From: Flavobacterium silvaticum
GTDB taxonomy: Bacteria > Bacteroidota > Bacteroidia > Flavobacteriales > Flavobacteriaceae
Assembly (NCBI RefSeq): GCF_012911565.1
Contig: NZ_JAAMPU010000096.1
Span: 62,001-126,000 of the forward strand
DNA length: 64,000 bases
Reading direction: 5' to 3'
The notes beneath the pieces are model-generated. The model worked only from the letters and a program-made list of their open reading frames with translations, did no database searches and was not told where the DNA came from. This document shows, in pieces, positions 11,314 through 18,511 of the stretch (positions are counted from its first letter, which is position 1; every line of letters begins with the position of its first letter). The position numbers were made by a program, and so were the translations under genes.

Positions 11314-12087
11314 CTATCGGAACTTATTTATGAATTGGCTGATGCCTTTGATGCCTTCTTTTTCCAGCTGACGGATGAAAGAGCTGCCAATGATGCCGCC
11401 GTCACTATACCTTGAAGCACTTTCGAAACTTTTTTTGTCGTGGATTCCGAAACCTGCGATGCATGGATTTTGAAGATTCAAAGCTGCAATCCGCTTGAAA
11501 TAGGTTTCTTCCACGTTTGAAAATACCTTGTTGTTTCCGGTGACTCCGGGCGATGATACCAGATAGGTGAATCCGGTGGACAGGGAATCGATGTATCGGA
11601 TCCTGTCGTCTGAGGTTTGAGGCGTGACCAATAAGATATTTTTTAGGTTGTACCGATCCAGGATTTCGACATAATCGGTTTCAAATTGTTCCGGCGGCAA
11701 ATCAGGGATGATCAACCCATCGATTCCAACTTTCTGGCAGTTTTCACAAAAATCCTCAAACCCATATTGCAGCAACGGATTCAGGTAAGCCATCAAAATC
11801 AATGGAATCTGTACCGATTCGCGAATGTTCGACAACTGTTCAAAAAGTACTTTCGCGTTTATTCCGTTTGAAATAGCGATAGACGATGAATGTTGGATAA
11901 CCGGCCCGTCGGCCAACGGATCGCTGAACGGCAGCCCGATTTCGATCATATCGGCCCCGCTTTTTTCAAGTTCACGGATAATTTCCGTGGTGTCATGCAA
12001 CTCCGGAAATCCGGCCGTAAAATAAACAGAGATGATTTTCTTTGCTGATGCGCGGCTTTTGTCGATTTGTTTTTTGATCCGATCCAT
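11314..12087 (-). CDS. trpA: Tryptophan synthase alpha subunit
   Basis: A 257-aa TIM-barrel protein that cleaves indole-3-glycerol phosphate to indole, passed to TrpB. Family motifs are clear: YFTAGFPELHDT, catalytic Glu in DMIEIGLPFSDPLADGP, catalytic Asp in IIPDLPPEQ, and phosphate-binding GFGIHDKKS and GGIIGSSF. I chose the ATG at 12087 (MDRIKKQIDK) because it follows the trpB TAA by one base. It is the last gene of the trp operon. Confidence 0.97.
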   Translation of the reverse strand: MDRIKKQIDKSRASAKKIISVYFTAGFPELHDTTEIIRELEKSGADMIEIGLPFSDPLADGPVIQHSSSIAISNGINAKVLFEQLSNIRESVQIPLILMAYLNPLLQYGFEDFCENCQKVGIDGLIIPDLPPEQFETDYVEILDRYNLKNILLVTPQTSDDRIRYIDSLSTGFTYLVSSPGVTGNNKVFSNVEETYFKRIAALNLQNPCIAGFGIHDKKSFESASRYSDGGIIGSSFIRQLEKEGIKGISQFINKFR

Positions 12088-12088
12088 A

Positions 12089-13267
12089 TTAAATAGAAAA
12101 ATAATCGATATAGGTTTGTAAGTCTTTATCGCCACGACCCGAAAGATTCACCACGACGACATCATCTTTTTTGAATTTGAGTTTTTCGAGGGCCGCCAAT
12201 GCATGCGCACTTTCAATGGCTGGGATGATTCCTTCCAATCGGCACAAATCCAATCCGGCTTTCATGCTTTCGTCATCGGTTACCGATAAAAATTCCGCCC
12301 GGCCCGAATCAAACAAATGTGCATGCAACGGCCCGATTCCCGGATAATCCAAACCGGCTGATATGGAATGTGGCTCGGTGATTTGCCCGAATTCATCTTG
12401 CATCAGCAACGTCATGCTTCCGTGTATGATTCCCGGTTTTCCCAAATATGTCGTCGCCGCACTTTCACCGGAATCGACACCTTTTCCGGCGGCTTCGACT
12501 GCAACCAACCGAACTTCTTTTTCATTGAGGTACTCATAGAAAGCCCCGGCCGCATTGCTTCCGCCGCCAACACAGGCAATCACGGCTGTCGGATTTTCGG
12601 AACCAGTCTTTTCCAGTAATTGTTTTTTTATTTCTTCTGAAATGACCGATTGGAAACGTGTCACCATGTCGGGATACGGATGCGGCCCGACGACAGATCC
12701 GATCAGATAATACGTATCGGACGGATTCGCGATCCAATCCCGGATGGCTTCGTTCGTCGCATCTTTCAAAGTCTTTGAACCCGATTCGGCAGTCCTGACT
12801 TCGGCACCGAGCATTTTCATCCGTGCCACATTCGGAGCCTGTCGTTTCACATCGATCGCGCCCATGTAAACCACGCATTTCAGTTGAAGCAATGCACAGA
12901 CCGTAGCCGTGGCGACTCCGTGCTGGCCCGCGCCTGTCTCGGCAATGATGCGTTTTTTGCCTAGCCGTTTGGCCAGCAGGATTTGTCCGATGGTGTTGTT
13001 GATTTTATGGGCACCCGTGTGGCACAGATCTTCGCGTTTAAGATAAATTTCAGCTTGATATTTTTCCGATAGGCTGTTGGCTCTGAAAAGAGGTGTTGGT
13101 CTTCCGGCGAAATCCCGAAGCAATTGACGGAATTCTGTCTGGAAATCATCCGATTGTGAAATGTCGAGATAACAACGACGTAGTTCCTCAACACTCGCAT
13201 GGAGCATTTCGGGGACGTATGCGCCTCCGAATTTGCCGTAAAATCCTGTATCGTTTACTGAAAACAT
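12089..13267 (-). CDS. trpB: Tryptophan synthase beta subunit
   Basis: A 392-aa PLP enzyme that joins indole to serine to make tryptophan. The Schiff-base lysine is in [11 protein letters not shown], the Glu/Gly signature is [14 protein letters not shown], and the PLP phosphate loop is [12 protein letters not shown]. Length is typical of TrpB1. Its start overlaps the end of trpF by 13 bases, indicating coupled translation. Confidence 0.98.
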
Positions 13268-13863
13268 AGTCGTAATTCTTTTAAAAATTCTTGGATTAAT
13301 AGGATATTTTTGATTCCCGGTTGGGTTTCGAATTTGGAGTTGATGTCGATGCCGAAAGGCTTCAATCCGGAATCTTTTAGCTGCTGAATATCGTTTGGGC
13401 CAATTCCGCCACTGATGAAATACGGTTTGTCCGATGGATATTTTTTGAGGATTTCCCAGTCGAACCGGGTTCCGTTACCACCCAATCTTTCTCCTTTGGT
13501 GTCGAACAGGAAATAATCGGCGACGGCTTCGAATGGTTTCAATCGGTCGAAATCAAAATTGGTTGCGACAGAAAAAACTTTTATCCGCATAAAACCGGAA
13601 AATTTTTCGAGAAATTCTGGTGATTCATTTCCGTGGAATTGAATCGCTTTTAAATGATAGAAGGCTGATTTTTCGCGGATTTCATCTTCCGAAGCATTTA
13701 CAAAAACGCCGGTTCTTATTATGGTATCGGAAGTTTCCGGAAGTGATTGTGTGACATTCCGAGGAGAATCGGCGTAAAAAATAAAACCCATAAAATCTGG
13801 TTTCAACGCTGAGACTTCGTTTATGTTTCCTGAATCCGTCATGCCGCAAACCTTGATCTTCAT
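13255..13863 (-). CDS. trpF: Phosphoribosylanthranilate isomerase
   Basis: A 202-aa TIM-barrel enzyme that isomerises phosphoribosyl-anthranilate. It begins [10 protein letters not shown], with the catalytic Cys in KVCGM, and has the catalytic Asp region [18 protein letters not shown], the phosphate loop [11 protein letters not shown] and [16 protein letters not shown]. It is a separate gene rather than fused to trpC. It overlaps trpC by four bases. Confidence 0.97.
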
Positions 13864-14642
13864 AATGTAGATTTGATTAATTCAGACACTGATTCATACG
13901 GATTTTCCGAAGTCATGAATTGGTCACCGATTAAAAATCCGTCAAAGCCGGCTTGTTTCAATCGCTTGATTTCGTCTGCCGTCTTGATGCCGCTTTCTGA
14001 AATTTTTACTACGGATTTGGGAATGCCACCGACCAATGAAAAACTCGTCTCCAAATCTATTTCCATGGTTTTGAGGTTTCGGTTGTTGACGCCAATCAAC
14101 CCAATTCCAGGACAAACCGATTTTTCGAGTTCTTCCGAATCGTGAACTTCAAGCAAAATTTCCAATCCTAATGAAACGGCAAGTTTTGTAAACGACTGGA
14201 TTTTTTCAGGCGAAAGCAAAGCCGCAATCAGCAATATAGCATCGGCTCCGATCGCTTTGGATTGAAGGATCTGGTATTCGTCTATGATAAATTCCTTGCG
14301 AAGAATGGGAAGGTCGGTCACGCTTCTGGCAATCTGCAAATCATCGGTAGAACCGCCAAAGAATTTTCCGTCGGTTAATATCGACATTCCAGCCGCGCCT
14401 GCTTCCTGGTAATCGGCTACGATTTCATCTATCCAATTCGTGGACTGAGCCAACGTCCTCGAAGGCGAGCGTCTTTTGTGTTCGGCAATAATTCCGGTAG
14501 TATGTGAGCGTAATGAAGCTGCAAGCGACACACATTTTCGGTCGAAAAGGGGCGAAGCTTCAAAGTAGGAAACGGGGATGAGTTTTTTTGTCCTTTCGAC
14601 TTCGATTCGTTTGTAATAGGCGATTTTTTCCAGAATATTCAT
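13860..14642 (-). CDS. trpC: Indole-3-glycerol phosphate synthase
   Basis: A 260-aa TIM-barrel enzyme that closes the indole ring. Signature stretches: IIAEHKRRSPSRTL (substrate lysine), LRKEFIIDEYQI, LLEVHDSEEL, IGVNNRNLKTMEID and ISESGIKTADEI. Four-base overlaps link it to trpD upstream and trpF downstream. Confidence 0.97.
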   Translation of the reverse strand: MNILEKIAYYKRIEVERTKKLIPVSYFEASPLFDRKCVSLAASLRSHTTGIIAEHKRRSPSRTLAQSTNWIDEIVADYQEAGAAGMSILTDGKFFGGSTDDLQIARSVTDLPILRKEFIIDEYQILQSKAIGADAILLIAALLSPEKIQSFTKLAVSLGLEILLEVHDSEELEKSVCPGIGLIGVNNRNLKTMEIDLETSFSLVGGIPKSVVKISESGIKTADEIKRLKQAGFDGFLIGDQFMTSENPYESVSELIKSTL

Positions 14643-15631
14643 AGCGAAATGTGTTGTAATTTTTGGAACGATTTTAAGGCTTTTCCAGATGTCAACGATT
14701 CTTTTGCCAGTTGGAAAGCATCTGTCAGCGATATGTCTTTCATCAATGAAATTCCGGGAGCGGCGTTGGCACAGACTACATCGGATTGGGCTTTTGTGCT
14801 TTTATTTTCAAGGACAGATGTGAAGATTCGGGATGCGTCTTTTATTGTTTTTCCGTTTCCGATTTGATCCGGATGCAATGTTTCCGTCGAGAAATGAGTC
14901 GGTGAAAACACCTTTTCTTCATCGGCGGAAAGTAACTTCCAATCACCTGTCAATGAAATCTCATCGTATCCGTCAAGACCATGGATCACCGAATAGTTCA
15001 TGTCGGTCTGTTGAAACAGATAATGATATTTCCGCGCAAGTTCCAGGTTGAAAACACCCGAAACCTGATTTTTTACAAATGCCGGATTCACCAAAGGCCC
15101 GAGCATGTTGAAAAATGTCGGAACGCCCAATTCACGCCGTATCGGACCGACGTGCTTCATGGCCGGATGGAACAATGGTGCGTGCATGATACAGATTCCG
15201 GCTTCGTCCAAAGAGCGTCTGAGGAAATCTTTGTCGTTTGAAAACCGGATTCCCAGTTCTTCCAGAACATTGCTTGAACCGCAAGTTGACGTTACGCCAT
15301 AATTTCCGTGTTTGGCGACCGGAATGCCGCAGCCTGCCGTTACAAAGGAAGCAAGCGTTGAAATGTTGAAGGTGTCTTTTCCATCGCCTCCGGTTCCGCA
15401 AAGGTCAATCGGGTCGAAATCGCTCAAATCTGTCTGGATGCAAAAGTCGAGCAGGGCGCTTCGGAAACCAGAGAGTTCATCAACTGTAATCGGTCGCATC
15501 ATAAAAACGGTCAGGAATGCGGCGACCTGTGCCGGTGCGACATCGCCTTTTGAAATCTGGCTTAAAGCGTCGTATGCCTCACTTTTGGAAAGCGATTCGT
15601 ATCGGATCAATTTGTTGAGTACCTGTTTCAT
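14639..15631 (-). CDS. trpD: Anthranilate phosphoribosyltransferase
   Basis: A 330-aa enzyme that transfers phosphoribose from PRPP to anthranilate. The PRPP motif DLCGTGGDGKDTFNIST and the anthranilate-site KHGNYGVTSTCGSSNVLEELG are clear, along with HAPLFHPAMKHVGPIRRELGVPTFFNMLGPL. It is separate from trpG (no fusion) but overlaps it by four bases. Confidence 0.97.
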   Translation of the reverse strand: MKQVLNKLIRYESLSKSEAYDALSQISKGDVAPAQVAAFLTVFMMRPITVDELSGFRSALLDFCIQTDLSDFDPIDLCGTGGDGKDTFNISTLASFVTAGCGIPVAKHGNYGVTSTCGSSNVLEELGIRFSNDKDFLRRSLDEAGICIMHAPLFHPAMKHVGPIRRELGVPTFFNMLGPLVNPAFVKNQVSGVFNLELARKYHYLFQQTDMNYSVIHGLDGYDEISLTGDWKLLSADEEKVFSPTHFSTETLHPDQIGNGKTIKDASRIFTSVLENKSTKAQSDVVCANAAPGISLMKDISLTDAFQLAKESLTSGKALKSFQKLQHISL

Positions 15632-16203
15632 AATTGGGAATTTTCAATCCAGTTTTTGAGAATTTGGGTTCCGGATGGTGTCAGGATACTTTCCGGATGG
15701 AATTGGATGCCGCGCACATCGTAGGTTTTGTGTCGCAACGACATGACTTGCCCGTTTGCATCCGTCGATGTGATTTCCAATGCGTCAGGCAGATTTGGAT
15801 CGACGGTCCACGAATGGTATCGGCCTACTTCAAATACATCCGGAATTCCGTAGAACAACCGGTTATCTCTCGAAATAATTTGGGCCTGATCTGATTCTCC
15901 GTGGAAAACGCGTTCCAGATTTATGAGCTTTCCGCCAAAAACCTCGGCTATGGCCTGATGCCCGAGACAAACCCCGAGGATGCTTTTAGTGCCCGAATAT
16001 CTTGAAATAACCGCTGTAAGCAAACCCGCTTCCGAAGGAATTCCCGGTCCGGGAGACAACACGATATGTTGAAACGGTTCGATATCTTCGAGTTCAAAAG
16101 CATCGTTCCTCCAGATGGTGACTTCGCAACCCAAAGCTTCGAAACAATGCAATAAATTATAACTGAAACTGTCGTAATTGTCTATGATGAGTACTTTTTT
16201 CAT
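15628..16203 (-). CDS. trpG: Anthranilate synthase glutamine amidotransferase component
   Basis: A 191-aa class I amidotransferase that supplies ammonia to TrpE. The triad is visible: nucleophile Cys in ILGVCLGHQAI, and His and Glu in GIQFHPESILTPSG. The oxyanion loop LSPGPGIPSEAG is conserved. The ATG follows the trpE stop by one base. Confidence 0.97.
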   Translation of the reverse strand: MKKVLIIDNYDSFSYNLLHCFEALGCEVTIWRNDAFELEDIEPFQHIVLSPGPGIPSEAGLLTAVISRYSGTKSILGVCLGHQAIAEVFGGKLINLERVFHGESDQAQIISRDNRLFYGIPDVFEVGRYHSWTVDPNLPDALEITSTDANGQVMSLRHKTYDVRGIQFHPESILTPSGTQILKNWIENSQL

Positions 16204-16204
16204 G

Positions 16205-17602
16205 TCAGTTGATTTCTTCGGCGAGTAAAATGGCTTTGTCCAACGCCGCGAGTTTATTGTAGACTTCCTGTAATTCCGAATCTTCGTTGGAATTGATTGT
16301 GATTCCGGCTCCAGCCTGATAGCGCAATCGATGGTCTTTGCTTAGGAACGTCCGGATGAGAATGGCGTGGTTGAAATTCCCGTCGAAATCCATGAACCCG
16401 ATTGCGCCGCCGTAGAATCCGCGTGATGTGCTTTCTATTTCCTCGATGAGTTCCATCGCCCGGTATTTTGGTGCACCGCTTAAAGTTCCTGCCGGAAAAG
16501 TTCCTGCAACCGCATTCAAAGTTCTGGCCGATTCCCGCAATTTTCCGGTGACTTTTGAAACCAGATGGATTACGTGGGAAAAGAACTGCAATTGGGCGAA
16601 TGTTTCGACCTTGACGTTTGTGGCATTGCGTGAAAGATCATTTCGGGCTAAATCGACAAGCATGACGTGTTCGGCGTTTTCTTTTTTGTCCGAGGCGAGT
16701 TTGCGGGCGAGTTCGGCATCCTGTTCGTCATTTCCGGTGCGTTTGAATGTGCCGGCAATCGGGTGGATTTCCATTTGGCGGTTGCGGACGACCAGGTGTG
16801 CCTCTGGCGAAGAACCAAATAGCTTGAAATCACCATAATCGAAATAAAATAAATAGGGTGAAGGATTGATGCTTCGCAAAGCCCTGTAAACGTTGAAATC
16901 ATCGCCTTTGAATTTTTGGGAGAACGATCTTGAAAGCACCAATTGAAAAACATCGCCGCGTTGGATGTGGGTTTTGGCTTTGCGGATGTGGCTTCGGAAC
17001 TGATCATCGGTTAAATTCGATGTCTTTTCCAGATTGCGGCTGAACGGATATTTCGGCAAACCTGTGTTGTTTATTAACTGAAGGATTTCTTCAAGGTTAT
17101 GGGAATCATCCGGGGAATAATTAAAAATATGGGCTTCGTTCCGAAAATGATCGATGGCGATTACGTTGGAGTAGAAGCTGTAGAAAATATCCGGGATTTG
17201 ATCTGAAACCGATTTTTTAGTGATTGAAATATCCTCAAAGTATTGTACAGAATCATAAGCCATATAGCCAAAAAGGCCTTGAGAAATAAACGGAACCTTT
17301 GATTTTTCAAGTTGGAAAAAAGATGCAAATGCTTCAAGTTCTTCGATCACCGCTATTTTGTTGTTGATTGTTTTTTCAGATTTCGATCCGTCAGGCAATT
17401 GAACGATAATCTTTCCTGACGCGACTTTTATCGATGCCACCGGATTGCAACAGATGTAGGAGAAACTCTGGTCGCCCGAATGATAATCGGAACTTTCCAG
17501 CAATATGGAATTTGGAAAACGATCTCGCAGTTTGAGGTAAGTGCTGACTGGCGTCAATGTGTCGGCGAGCAGTTTTTTATAATGAGTCTTGAATGGGAAC
17601 AT
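16205..17602 (-). CDS. trpE: Anthranilate synthase component I
   Basis: A 465-aa chorismate-using enzyme that makes anthranilate with ammonia from TrpG. The tryptophan feedback motif LLESSD is near residue 34. The C-terminal chorismate-binding domain has FQLVLSRSF, SPYLFYFDYGDFKLFGSSPE, IHPIAGTFKRTG, DLARNDLSRNA, GTLSGAPKYRAMELIEEIE and RGFYGGAIGF. It is the first gene of the operon, 83 bases beyond the leader-peptide stop, with the attenuator hairpin between. The enzyme and the leader imply two levels of tryptophan control. Confidence 0.97.
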   Translation of the reverse strand: MFPFKTHYKKLLADTLTPVSTYLKLRDRFPNSILLESSDYHSGDQSFSYICCNPVASIKVASGKIIVQLPDGSKSEKTINNKIAVIEELEAFASFFQLEKSKVPFISQGLFGYMAYDSVQYFEDISITKKSVSDQIPDIFYSFYSNVIAIDHFRNEAHIFNYSPDDSHNLEEILQLINNTGLPKYPFSRNLEKTSNLTDDQFRSHIRKAKTHIQRGDVFQLVLSRSFSQKFKGDDFNVYRALRSINPSPYLFYFDYGDFKLFGSSPEAHLVVRNRQMEIHPIAGTFKRTGNDEQDAELARKLASDKKENAEHVMLVDLARNDLSRNATNVKVETFAQLQFFSHVIHLVSKVTGKLRESARTLNAVAGTFPAGTLSGAPKYRAMELIEEIESTSRGFYGGAIGFMDFDGNFNHAILIRTFLSKDHRLRYQAGAGITINSNEDSELQEVYNKLAALDKAILLAEEIN

Positions 17603-17621
17603 GGTGTTGATTTTTGGGAAT

Positions 17622-17654
17622 AAAAAAAGGCCTGTCGTGATGGACAGGCCTTTT
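17622..17654 (-). terminator. trp operon attenuator hairpin
   Basis: On the minus strand a perfect 12-bp stem (AAAAGGCCTGTC pairing with GACAGGCCTTTT) closes a 6-nt loop and runs into seven U residues. It lies between the leader-peptide stop (17685) and trpE (17602), the place expected for an attenuator. A strong antiterminator was not identified with confidence; AAGCGGTCCGCTT (17673-17685) forms a competing small hairpin. Confidence 0.9.
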
Positions 17655-17684
17655 GTATATGGATATATAACTAAGCGGACCGCT

Positions 17685-17732
17685 TCACGACGTTCGACGT
17701 AAATTGTTCCACCAGCAGTTATTTTGATTCAT
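17685..17732 (-). CDS. trpL: trp operon leader peptide
   Basis: A 15-codon open frame translating to MNQNNCWWNNLRRTS, with two consecutive UGG Trp codons at positions 7-8. It begins shortly downstream of a good promoter and ends 31 bases before the start of the terminator stem. Tandem Trp codons in a short leader upstream of a terminator and trpE are the hallmark of ribosome-mediated attenuation: scarce charged tRNA-Trp stalls the ribosome and lets transcription continue. No homology is needed for the call; it rests on position and codons. Confidence 0.88.
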   Translation of the reverse strand: MNQNNCWWNNLRRTS

Positions 17733-17745
17733 TTTGTACATATCA

Positions 17746-17774
17746 CAAAAGTAACAATCTTATTTAGCGGGCAA
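17746..17774 (-). promoter_or_regulatory. trp operon promoter (TTG-N18-TACTTTTG)
   Basis: On the minus strand TTG (17774-17772), an 18-base spacer and TACTTTTG (17753-17746) match the Flavobacterium promoter consensus TTG-N17-23-TANNTTTG. Predicted transcription starts near 17740, just upstream of the leader peptide ATG at 17732. Confidence 0.8.
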
Positions 17775-17848
17775 AATTTTATCGGGTTTTTTTGGGAAAT
17801 TTTTCTCTCGGGTTAAAAACGTACTTTAGCGCGACTCAAAAAAATGCC

Positions 17849-18511
17849 ATGACCGTTAAAGAACGCGCCGCCTTTGTCGTAGAAAAATTAGAGGAATTGT
17901 TTCCCGAAGTCCCGGTTCCGCTCGATCACACAGACGCTTACACCTTGTTGATCGCCGTGTTGTTGTCGGCTCAATGTACAGATGTCCGGGTCAATCAAAT
18001 CACGCCGATCCTTTTTGCCAAAGCCGATTCGCCCCAACGAATGGTCAAACTCGATGTGGAGGAAATCAAGGAAATCATTCGTCCGTGCGGGTTGTCTCCG
18101 GCCAAATCAAAAGCGATCCATCGGTTATCTGAAATCCTTCTGGAGAAATACAATGGAGAAGTGCCGGCTACTTTTGAGGACTTGGAATCATTACCCGGAG
18201 TCGGACACAAAACCGCAAGTGTCGTGATGTCCCAGGCTTTCGGATTTCCGGCGTTTCCGGTCGATACGCATATTCACAGATTGATGTGGCGCTGGAACCT
18301 GACCAATGGAAAGAATGTGGAGCAGACAGAAAAAGATGCGAAACGATTGTTTCCTGAAAAGTTATGGAACAAACTCCATCTGCAAATCATCTATTACGGA
18401 CGCCAGTATTCACCGGCCCGTGGACTCGATTTGAATAAAGATATCATCACCCGGACAATTGGCCGGAAGGAAGTGATTTCTGAATGGGCCAAAAAAAATC
18501 CCGGCATTTAG
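17849..18511 (+). CDS. nth: Endonuclease III
   Basis: A 220-aa base-excision repair glycosylase/AP lyase that removes oxidised pyrimidines. The helix-hairpin-helix LESLPGVGHKTASVV carries the catalytic Lys, followed by the catalytic Asp in FPVDTHIHR. Unlike E. coli Nth the C-terminus (RQYSPARGLDLNKDIITRTIGRKEV) has no cysteines, so the four-Cys iron-sulphur loop is absent. ATG at 17849 (MTVKERAAFV) is preferred over an upstream start because it matches the family's N-terminus. Confidence 0.93.
   Translation: MTVKERAAFVVEKLEELFPEVPVPLDHTDAYTLLIAVLLSAQCTDVRVNQITPILFAKADSPQRMVKLDVEEIKEIIRPCGLSPAKSKAIHRLSEILLEKYNGEVPATFEDLESLPGVGHKTASVVMSQAFGFPAFPVDTHIHRLMWRWNLTNGKNVEQTEKDAKRLFPEKLWNKLHLQIIYYGRQYSPARGLDLNKDIITRTIGRKEVISEWAKKNPGI

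Follow-up and report, generated by a model that had tools for sequence, protein, structure and literature searches.

Which RNA segment could open the terminator in front of trpE of Flavobacterium silvaticum when tryptophan runs short? The question is raised by a leader in the window (the whole stretch of DNA that was analysed, 64,000 nt), for which the best reading of the sequence is an attenuator upstream of trpE on the minus strand, of the ribosome-mediated type and with a predicted response to Trp. In the trpL attenuator of E. coli, tandem Trp codons, competing hairpins and a terminator before trpE are combined, and the ribosome serves as the sensor. The original prediction had proposed a similar arrangement here and gave no strand; all of its named parts were found, on the minus strand.

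The leader before trpE and its relatives

The features of the locus are as follows.

11314-17602, minus strand: trpEGDCFBA operon, downstream of the leader
16205-17602, minus strand: trpE, first gene of the operon (model matches)
17622-17654, minus strand: intrinsic terminator with a 12-bp stem, a 6-nt loop and a run of 7 T (fold, terminator scan, changes in relatives)
17634-17640, minus strand: candidate antiterminator strand 1b, UCACGAC, in the terminator loop and the first bases of the 3' arm (pairing computations)
17667-17678, minus strand: leader hairpin, 3' side (fold, support over 45 representatives)
17677-17683, minus strand: candidate antiterminator strand 2a, located after the stop codon and pairing with the terminator 5' arm within 17650-17644 (pairing computations)
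17685-17691, minus strand: candidate antiterminator strand 1a, GUCGUGA, separated from the last Trp codon by 17 nt and overlapping with the stop codon (pairing and comparative tests)
17685-17741, minus strand: leader ORF MYKMNQNNCWWNNLRRTS with stop codon TGA, its ATG predicted at or next to +1, with an alternative in-frame ATG at 17732 (start homologous to that of relatives)
17709-17714, minus strand: tandem Trp codons TGGTGG (sequence)
17709-17723, minus strand: leader hairpin, 5' side, containing the Trp codons (fold, support over 45 representatives)
17741, minus strand: predicted +1 (box-to-+1 spacing taken from the text of PMC9723704)
17746-17753, minus strand: -7 box TACTTTTG, Bacteroidota sigma-A consensus TAnnTTTG (sequence)
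17772-17774, minus strand: -33 element TTG, 18 nt ahead of the -7 box (read from sequence)

In the operon downstream of the leader, the TrpG, TrpD, TrpC, TrpB and TrpA models exceeded their cut-offs. The best match of TrpE, to TIGR00564, scored 441.6 bits and stayed under the cut-off of 517.7, and that of TrpF (138.1) was under the cut-off of 216. The closest TrpE relatives among the matches listed were those of flavobacteria. On the other side, the endonuclease III gene nth (17846-18511, plus strand; TIGR01083 above cut-off) is divergent from the leader, and its ATG is 105 bases away from the leader ATG.

The arrangement is already catalogued, of which the original prediction was unaware. The leader belongs to the Rfam family RF01692 (Bacteroid-trp), with a full-model match at 17761-17643 of the minus strand (model positions 1-131) that scored 56.5 bits at a gathering cut-off of 49 and was found just once in the F. 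silvaticum genome. The shared traits are a leader ORF with Trp codons, a hairpin and the location before trp genes in Bacteroidota, here trpEGDCFBA. The RF01692 model stops at the 5' arm of the terminator and therefore cannot contain the candidate antiterminator. No T-box match was obtained, RF01692 alone being above its cut-off among the Rfam matches in the window; the weak scores of STnc370, GibS, Thr_leader, RsaE and others below their cut-offs were taken as look-alikes.

In a draw of 249 genomes from the family of F. silvaticum, RF01692 was detected in 194 at E ≤ 0.01 and in 156 above the cut-off; the corresponding numbers in 395 genomes drawn across the phylum were 47 and 38. As regards the Trp codons and the terminator that the original prediction expected in homologous leaders, 106 of 111 flavobacterial records carried both a tandem-Trp frame and a terminator accepted by rule. 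The five dropped records were L080, L083 and L109, in which the stretch taken contained no WW frame, and L060 and L070, which failed the terminator rule. In the first three, the 400 bases upstream of trpE hold what appears to be the end of another reading frame, presumably that of a GIY-YIG nuclease, so the leader may be separated from trpE by a gene in these loci.

A draw of 51 trpE upstream regions was also made across Bacteroidia, the class of F. silvaticum. The TrpE search matched distant chorismate-binding enzymes as well, and only places with E ≤ 5.2e-116 were taken as TrpE. A leader of this build was present in at least 31 of the 51 regions; L184, L194 and L204, counted among the 20 without it, show a WW frame and failed the terminator rule, and L196, kept among the leaders, is shortened by its contig end. 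The RF01692 model overlooked 30 of the 31 leaders, which missed its cut-off; only L164, from the family of F. silvaticum, reached it.

The set used for comparison comprised 193 leaders, that of F. silvaticum and those of 192 out of 222 loci. L001, L152 and L153 were skipped, and the rest had no WW frame or no accepted terminator. TGGTGG was required in the search, by which leaders with scattered Trp codons are missed. Loci repeating one another were removed in two non-redundant sets, of 45 leaders at ≤75% identity (the representatives) and of 102 leaders at ≤85%.

The terminator has a perfect 12-bp stem, AAAAGGCCUGUC/GACAGGCCUUUU, at 17654-17625 of the minus strand, and its run of 7 T ends at 17622, just as the original prediction had described it with its U-run. 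Two terminator-like sites were found in 17500-17900, compared with a shuffle mean of 0.4; besides the terminator there is a hairpin of 5 bp at 17685-17673. Among relatives, both-side changes were detected in 6 of 10 predicted terminator pairs. The leader fold reached -41.7 kcal/mol versus -24.7 kcal/mol in dinucleotide shuffles (z -4.98, 0/200). The predicted leader hairpin, in which the Trp-codon region is paired with the spacer after the stop codon, was supported over the 45 representatives by 0/10,000 permutations, by p<0.05 in 15 of 45 and by a combined p of 1.8e-10, where combined P values, here and below, ignore the remaining relatedness. In the F. silvaticum leader alone the hairpin was not significant (p 0.26).

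Leader peptide and start of its message

A 15-codon frame with two adjacent Trp codons had been reported in the original prediction. The Trp pair stands, and the start at the second ATG (17732) is probably off: by homology the leader ORF probably begins at the in-frame ATG 17741, three codons upstream. In 59 of 86 leaders 8 codons separate the start from the Trp run, and ATG 17741 sits at the same place, being followed by 8 codons, TGC (Cys) and TGGTGG. The TGC (TGC TGG TGG, 17709-17717, minus strand) stands where most relatives have another Trp codon, and it is probable from this comparison that the F. silvaticum leader has lost one sensing codon. Among the 102 non-redundant leaders, all of them selected through TGGTGG, three Trp codons in a row were counted in 86 and two in 16.

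The promoter TTG-N18-TACTTTTG was located, as proposed earlier, at 17774-17746 of the minus strand. In F. psychrophilum the box spans -12 to -5 according to the text of PMC9723704. The end of the F. silvaticum box is separated by 4 nt from ATG 17741, so the A of this ATG would be +1 and the leader message would be leaderless. From the promoter spacing, a leaderless or nearly leaderless message that starts at or beside ATG 17741 is likely but unproven.

An exact TAnnTTTG was present upstream in 86 of the 102 leaders, the other 16 being without the exact box. The gap between box and ATG was 4-5 nt in 24 of these 86 non-redundant leaders and 4-8 nt in 42, compared with 5.5% of leaderless mRNAs in F. 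psychrophilum as given in the text of PMC9723704. In B. thetaiotaomicron about 3.7% of 5' UTRs are <10 nt, and in F. johnsoniae 87% of transcripts have leaders >10 nt, which means that leaderless translation is not the rule.

The main alternative is a leader that is not leaderless, with translation beginning at the second ATG behind a predicted 5' UTR of 9 nt, or on a longer message. The in-frame ATG at 17732 does exist, and a gap of 15-18 nt, corresponding to a real 5' UTR with a predicted length of 11-14 nt, was measured in 19 of 86 relatives. This reading is nevertheless regarded as rather unlikely: the first ATG is homologous to the start of relatives, the 4-5-nt gap recurs among them, and an in-frame ATG with a gap <4 nt was encountered only in L116 (1/86), which has a second ATG.

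The putative leaderless start at 17741 was compared with the rest of the F. silvaticum genome. The pattern TAnnTTTG-N4-ATG occurred at 87 sites versus 32 for the reversed pattern, and 20 of the 30 sites that were read open frames of ≥100 codons. NCBIfam matches, among them MnmE, PyrE, RuvB, RlmN, UvrC and DusB, were obtained for 9 of 10 of those frames, a non-random sample picked for resembling known genes. Seven of the nine matches cover the model from close to its first residue, and the other two (L237, L241) carry an N-terminal extension of about 20 residues. The six named genes are housekeeping genes whose starts seem to coincide with the predicted +1 or to adjoin it, and leaderless messages may thus be common in F. 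silvaticum.

A candidate partner for the terminator

The original prediction held that the antiterminator is not obvious and that the switching pair may differ from that of E. coli. Both statements agree with the results. The plain fold of the whole leader gave the terminator and the leader hairpin and no antiterminator, and RNAalifold with 63 leaders gave the terminator only, which explains why the antiterminator had escaped notice. The pairing emerged when the upstream part and the terminator were paired separately, or when the part covered by the ribosome was omitted from the fold. The strongest partner of the upstream strand was the apex of the terminator hairpin.

The predicted antiterminator consists of GUCGUGA (17691-17685) paired with UCACGAC (17640-17634) and is extended by 17683-17677 with the 5' arm. 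It is predicted to be mutually exclusive with the terminator, and the pairing has comparative support. The second terminator-like hairpin, at 17685-17673, is a small local structure which competes with strand 2a. In many Flavobacterium leaders the extension is formed by AAGCUU with AGGCUU (e.g. L027). In L221, from the family of F. silvaticum, the common GUCGUGA/UCACGAC is replaced by GUCGCAAU with AUUGCGAC, two double changes that keep the pairing. Other families of the class use different matching pairs, such as UUGUGAACGG with CUGUUCACAG (L159) and GUCGUAAGG with CUUUACGGC (L138).

The mean energy of the own pairing was -16.8 kcal/mol in the 45 representatives, versus -13.3 kcal/mol when the partners were swapped (0/10,000 permutations). 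Against dinucleotide shuffles the median z was -1.71 and the combined p 9.6e-19; taken individually, 21 of the 45 were below p 0.05 and 6 of the 45 below p 0.01, and 24 were non-significant. For the 33 representatives outside the family of F. silvaticum the swap test gave 0/5000, and the combined p was 1.7e-12; for the 12 inside it the values were 95/5000 and 2.0e-8.

The position of the pairing segment was determined with sliding 16-nt windows over the same 45 representatives. Counted from the last Trp codon, a signal was detected at +8..+24, +14..+30 and +20..+36, and none at +0..+16, +26..+42, +32..+48 and +38..+54. The maximum was at +14..+30 (-11.98 vs -8.97, sd 0.35, z about -8.6); windows anchored to the stop codon were weaker, with z -5.9 at -8..+8. 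In finer steps with the 33 representatives outside the family, +4..+20 and +28..+44 reached only 262 and 242 of 5000. The motif NUCGUGA was present in 54 of the 102 non-redundant leaders, and in 53 of the 54 the distance from the last Trp codon to its start was 17-18 nt. Relative to the stop codon, it started at -4 in 41, at -9 in 10 and at +2, +5 and +8 in one each. The spacing from the Trp codons is better kept than the offset from the stop codon, which indicates that the position in the RNA, not the peptide, is kept.

The flavobacterial alignment had 63 rows (64 references were computed and L117, from another family, was left out). It showed NUCGUGA in the stop region and UCACGA in the terminator apex, and pairs 57:127 to 62:122 were kept in 59-63 of 63 rows, wobbles included. 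Changes on both sides were found in 6 of 11 antiterminator pairs, a number reached by 0/500 shuffles, and slid partners gave 1 to 3. The proportion of paired cells was 84.9% vs 84.1% in shuffles, a small difference because the central pairs hardly vary; for the same reason covariation is thin within the family. Pair 56:128 was unpaired in 25 of 63 rows and pair 68:113 in 44 of 63. The alignment-based covariation support for the antiterminator is modest.

The apex as the target has to be weighed against a classic switch of the E. coli type, where the 5' arm is the only partner of the upstream strand and the complementarity to the loop and 3' arm is incidental. L139 and L142-L145 do use mainly the 5' arm, and this arm alone produced a swap signal (6/5000 with the 45 representatives, 0/5000 with the 33 outside the family). 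The apex signal was stronger, however, with z -7.9 in the 45 representatives compared with -3.3 (5' arm) and -2.0 (3' arm), and within the family the helix to the loop and 3' arm was better kept (91.8% of cells paired vs 72.8% for the 5' arm). The pairing with the 5' arm alone was set aside as secondary, and we consider the E. coli-type switch improbable here.

The spacing of the motif bears also on the proposal that the element is conserved for the leader peptide, through nascent-chain arrest or a role of its own, and not for RNA switching. Many flavobacterial leader peptides are strikingly alike (M..ILNNTWWW..LRQTS), and the S. meliloti leader peptide peTrpL has its own role according to the text of PMC7298713. 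In contrast, the spacing of the motif from the Trp codons was kept in leaders with the stop codon at another place (13 of 54, e.g. L015, L133), and outside the family of F. silvaticum the peptide ends differ widely, so that conservation for the peptide appears very improbable.

Proposed switch and known attenuators

Of the ribosome-mediated attenuation claimed by the original prediction, sequence comparison backs the leader ORF, the terminator, the antiterminator pairing and how far this lies from the Trp codons; the positions of the ribosome, the kinetics, the start site and the Trp response are what we infer. On this basis it is quite probable that the Trp operon is controlled by a ribosome-mediated transcription attenuator with this leader, terminator and antiterminator.

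Transcription would start at or beside the leader ATG, so that the message of the leader peptide would have no or almost no 5' UTR. As long as Trp-tRNA is plentiful, the ribosome would get to the stop codon and cover GUCGUGA and the following bases, the terminator would form, and transcription would stop before trpE. With Trp-tRNA in short supply, the ribosome would stall on UGGUGG, open the leader hairpin and release a segment located about 17-30 nt downstream. The released segment would pair with the 5' arm of the terminator and then, as they are transcribed, with its loop and 3' foot; the terminator would be delayed and the polymerase would enter trpE. In the absence of a ribosome, both the Trp codons and the stop region would be sequestered in the leader hairpin, and the terminator would form. 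Ribosomes cover about 13 nt beyond the first base of the A site. One that sits on the last Trp codon would leave everything from about +10 free, and one at the stop codon would cover the motif.

When only those bases of the F. silvaticum leader were folded that a ribosome on the Trp codons would not cover, the antiterminator was obtained until 7 nt of the 3' arm were out, and the terminator thereafter. In the folding of full-length leaders the terminator won at equilibrium in 97 of 102, which means that the switch must be kinetic, with the antiterminator forming first. The same predicted dominance would suit a terminator that is constitutive or yields a stand-alone small RNA without Trp-dependent control, a reading that is hardly credible given that Trp codons, antiterminator and spacing are jointly kept before trp genes.

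The proposed kinetic switch resembles the E. coli trp attenuator in its tandem Trp codons, competing hairpins, terminator before trpE and predicted use of the ribosome as sensor. It differs in that the antiterminator lies at the leader stop codon and targets mainly the terminator apex, and in the predicted leaderless start. Sinorhizobium meliloti belongs to a different phylum from F. silvaticum. Its trpL is leaderless, the 5' end of the attenuator RNA being the ATG of the leader ORF in the text of PMC7298713; a leader starting at the ATG is only predicted here.

The Bacteroid-trp motif was tabulated by Weinberg et al. 2010 (PMC2864571), where the main text names it once, in the table. For F. 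psychrophilum, attenuation has been proposed for amino-acid operons with leader peptides (text of PMC9723704), and a Bacteroid-Trp element was noted before the trp operon (text of PMC6414381); the main-text parts of these two papers that deal with the attenuators contain no antiterminator or leader start site. In the passages found in open-licence PubMed Central papers, neither an antiterminator nor a leaderless start is described for Bacteroidota trp leaders, and no claim of priority is made. The present analysis adds a candidate switching partner, its spacing from the Trp codons, the breadth across the class and a predicted leaderless start. The family was catalogued in 2010, and no resolved switch was found in the accessible texts; with a candidate antiterminator named and its spacing from the Trp codons given, a few point mutations would suffice to test the mechanism. 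According to the text of PMC6847099, Bacteroidota mRNAs lack Shine-Dalgarno sequences, and a leaderless leader peptide, if true, would tie the choice of the start site directly to attenuation in such a phylum.

We lean slightly towards the view that the Trp attenuators of the class are one mechanistic class wider than the Rfam family, in which a ribosome stalled on the Trp codons would act as a ruler and expose, always at the same distance, a segment able to invade the terminator apex during its synthesis. The partner sequences would turn over together, and many lineages, F. silvaticum included, would have a leaderless leader in this phylum without Shine-Dalgarno sequences. The position of the leader was unusual in a few loci: in L112 and L117 it was located >1 kb upstream of trpE, and in L142, L144 and L145 it precedes a gene which, judging from its start, is presumably trpD and not trpE.
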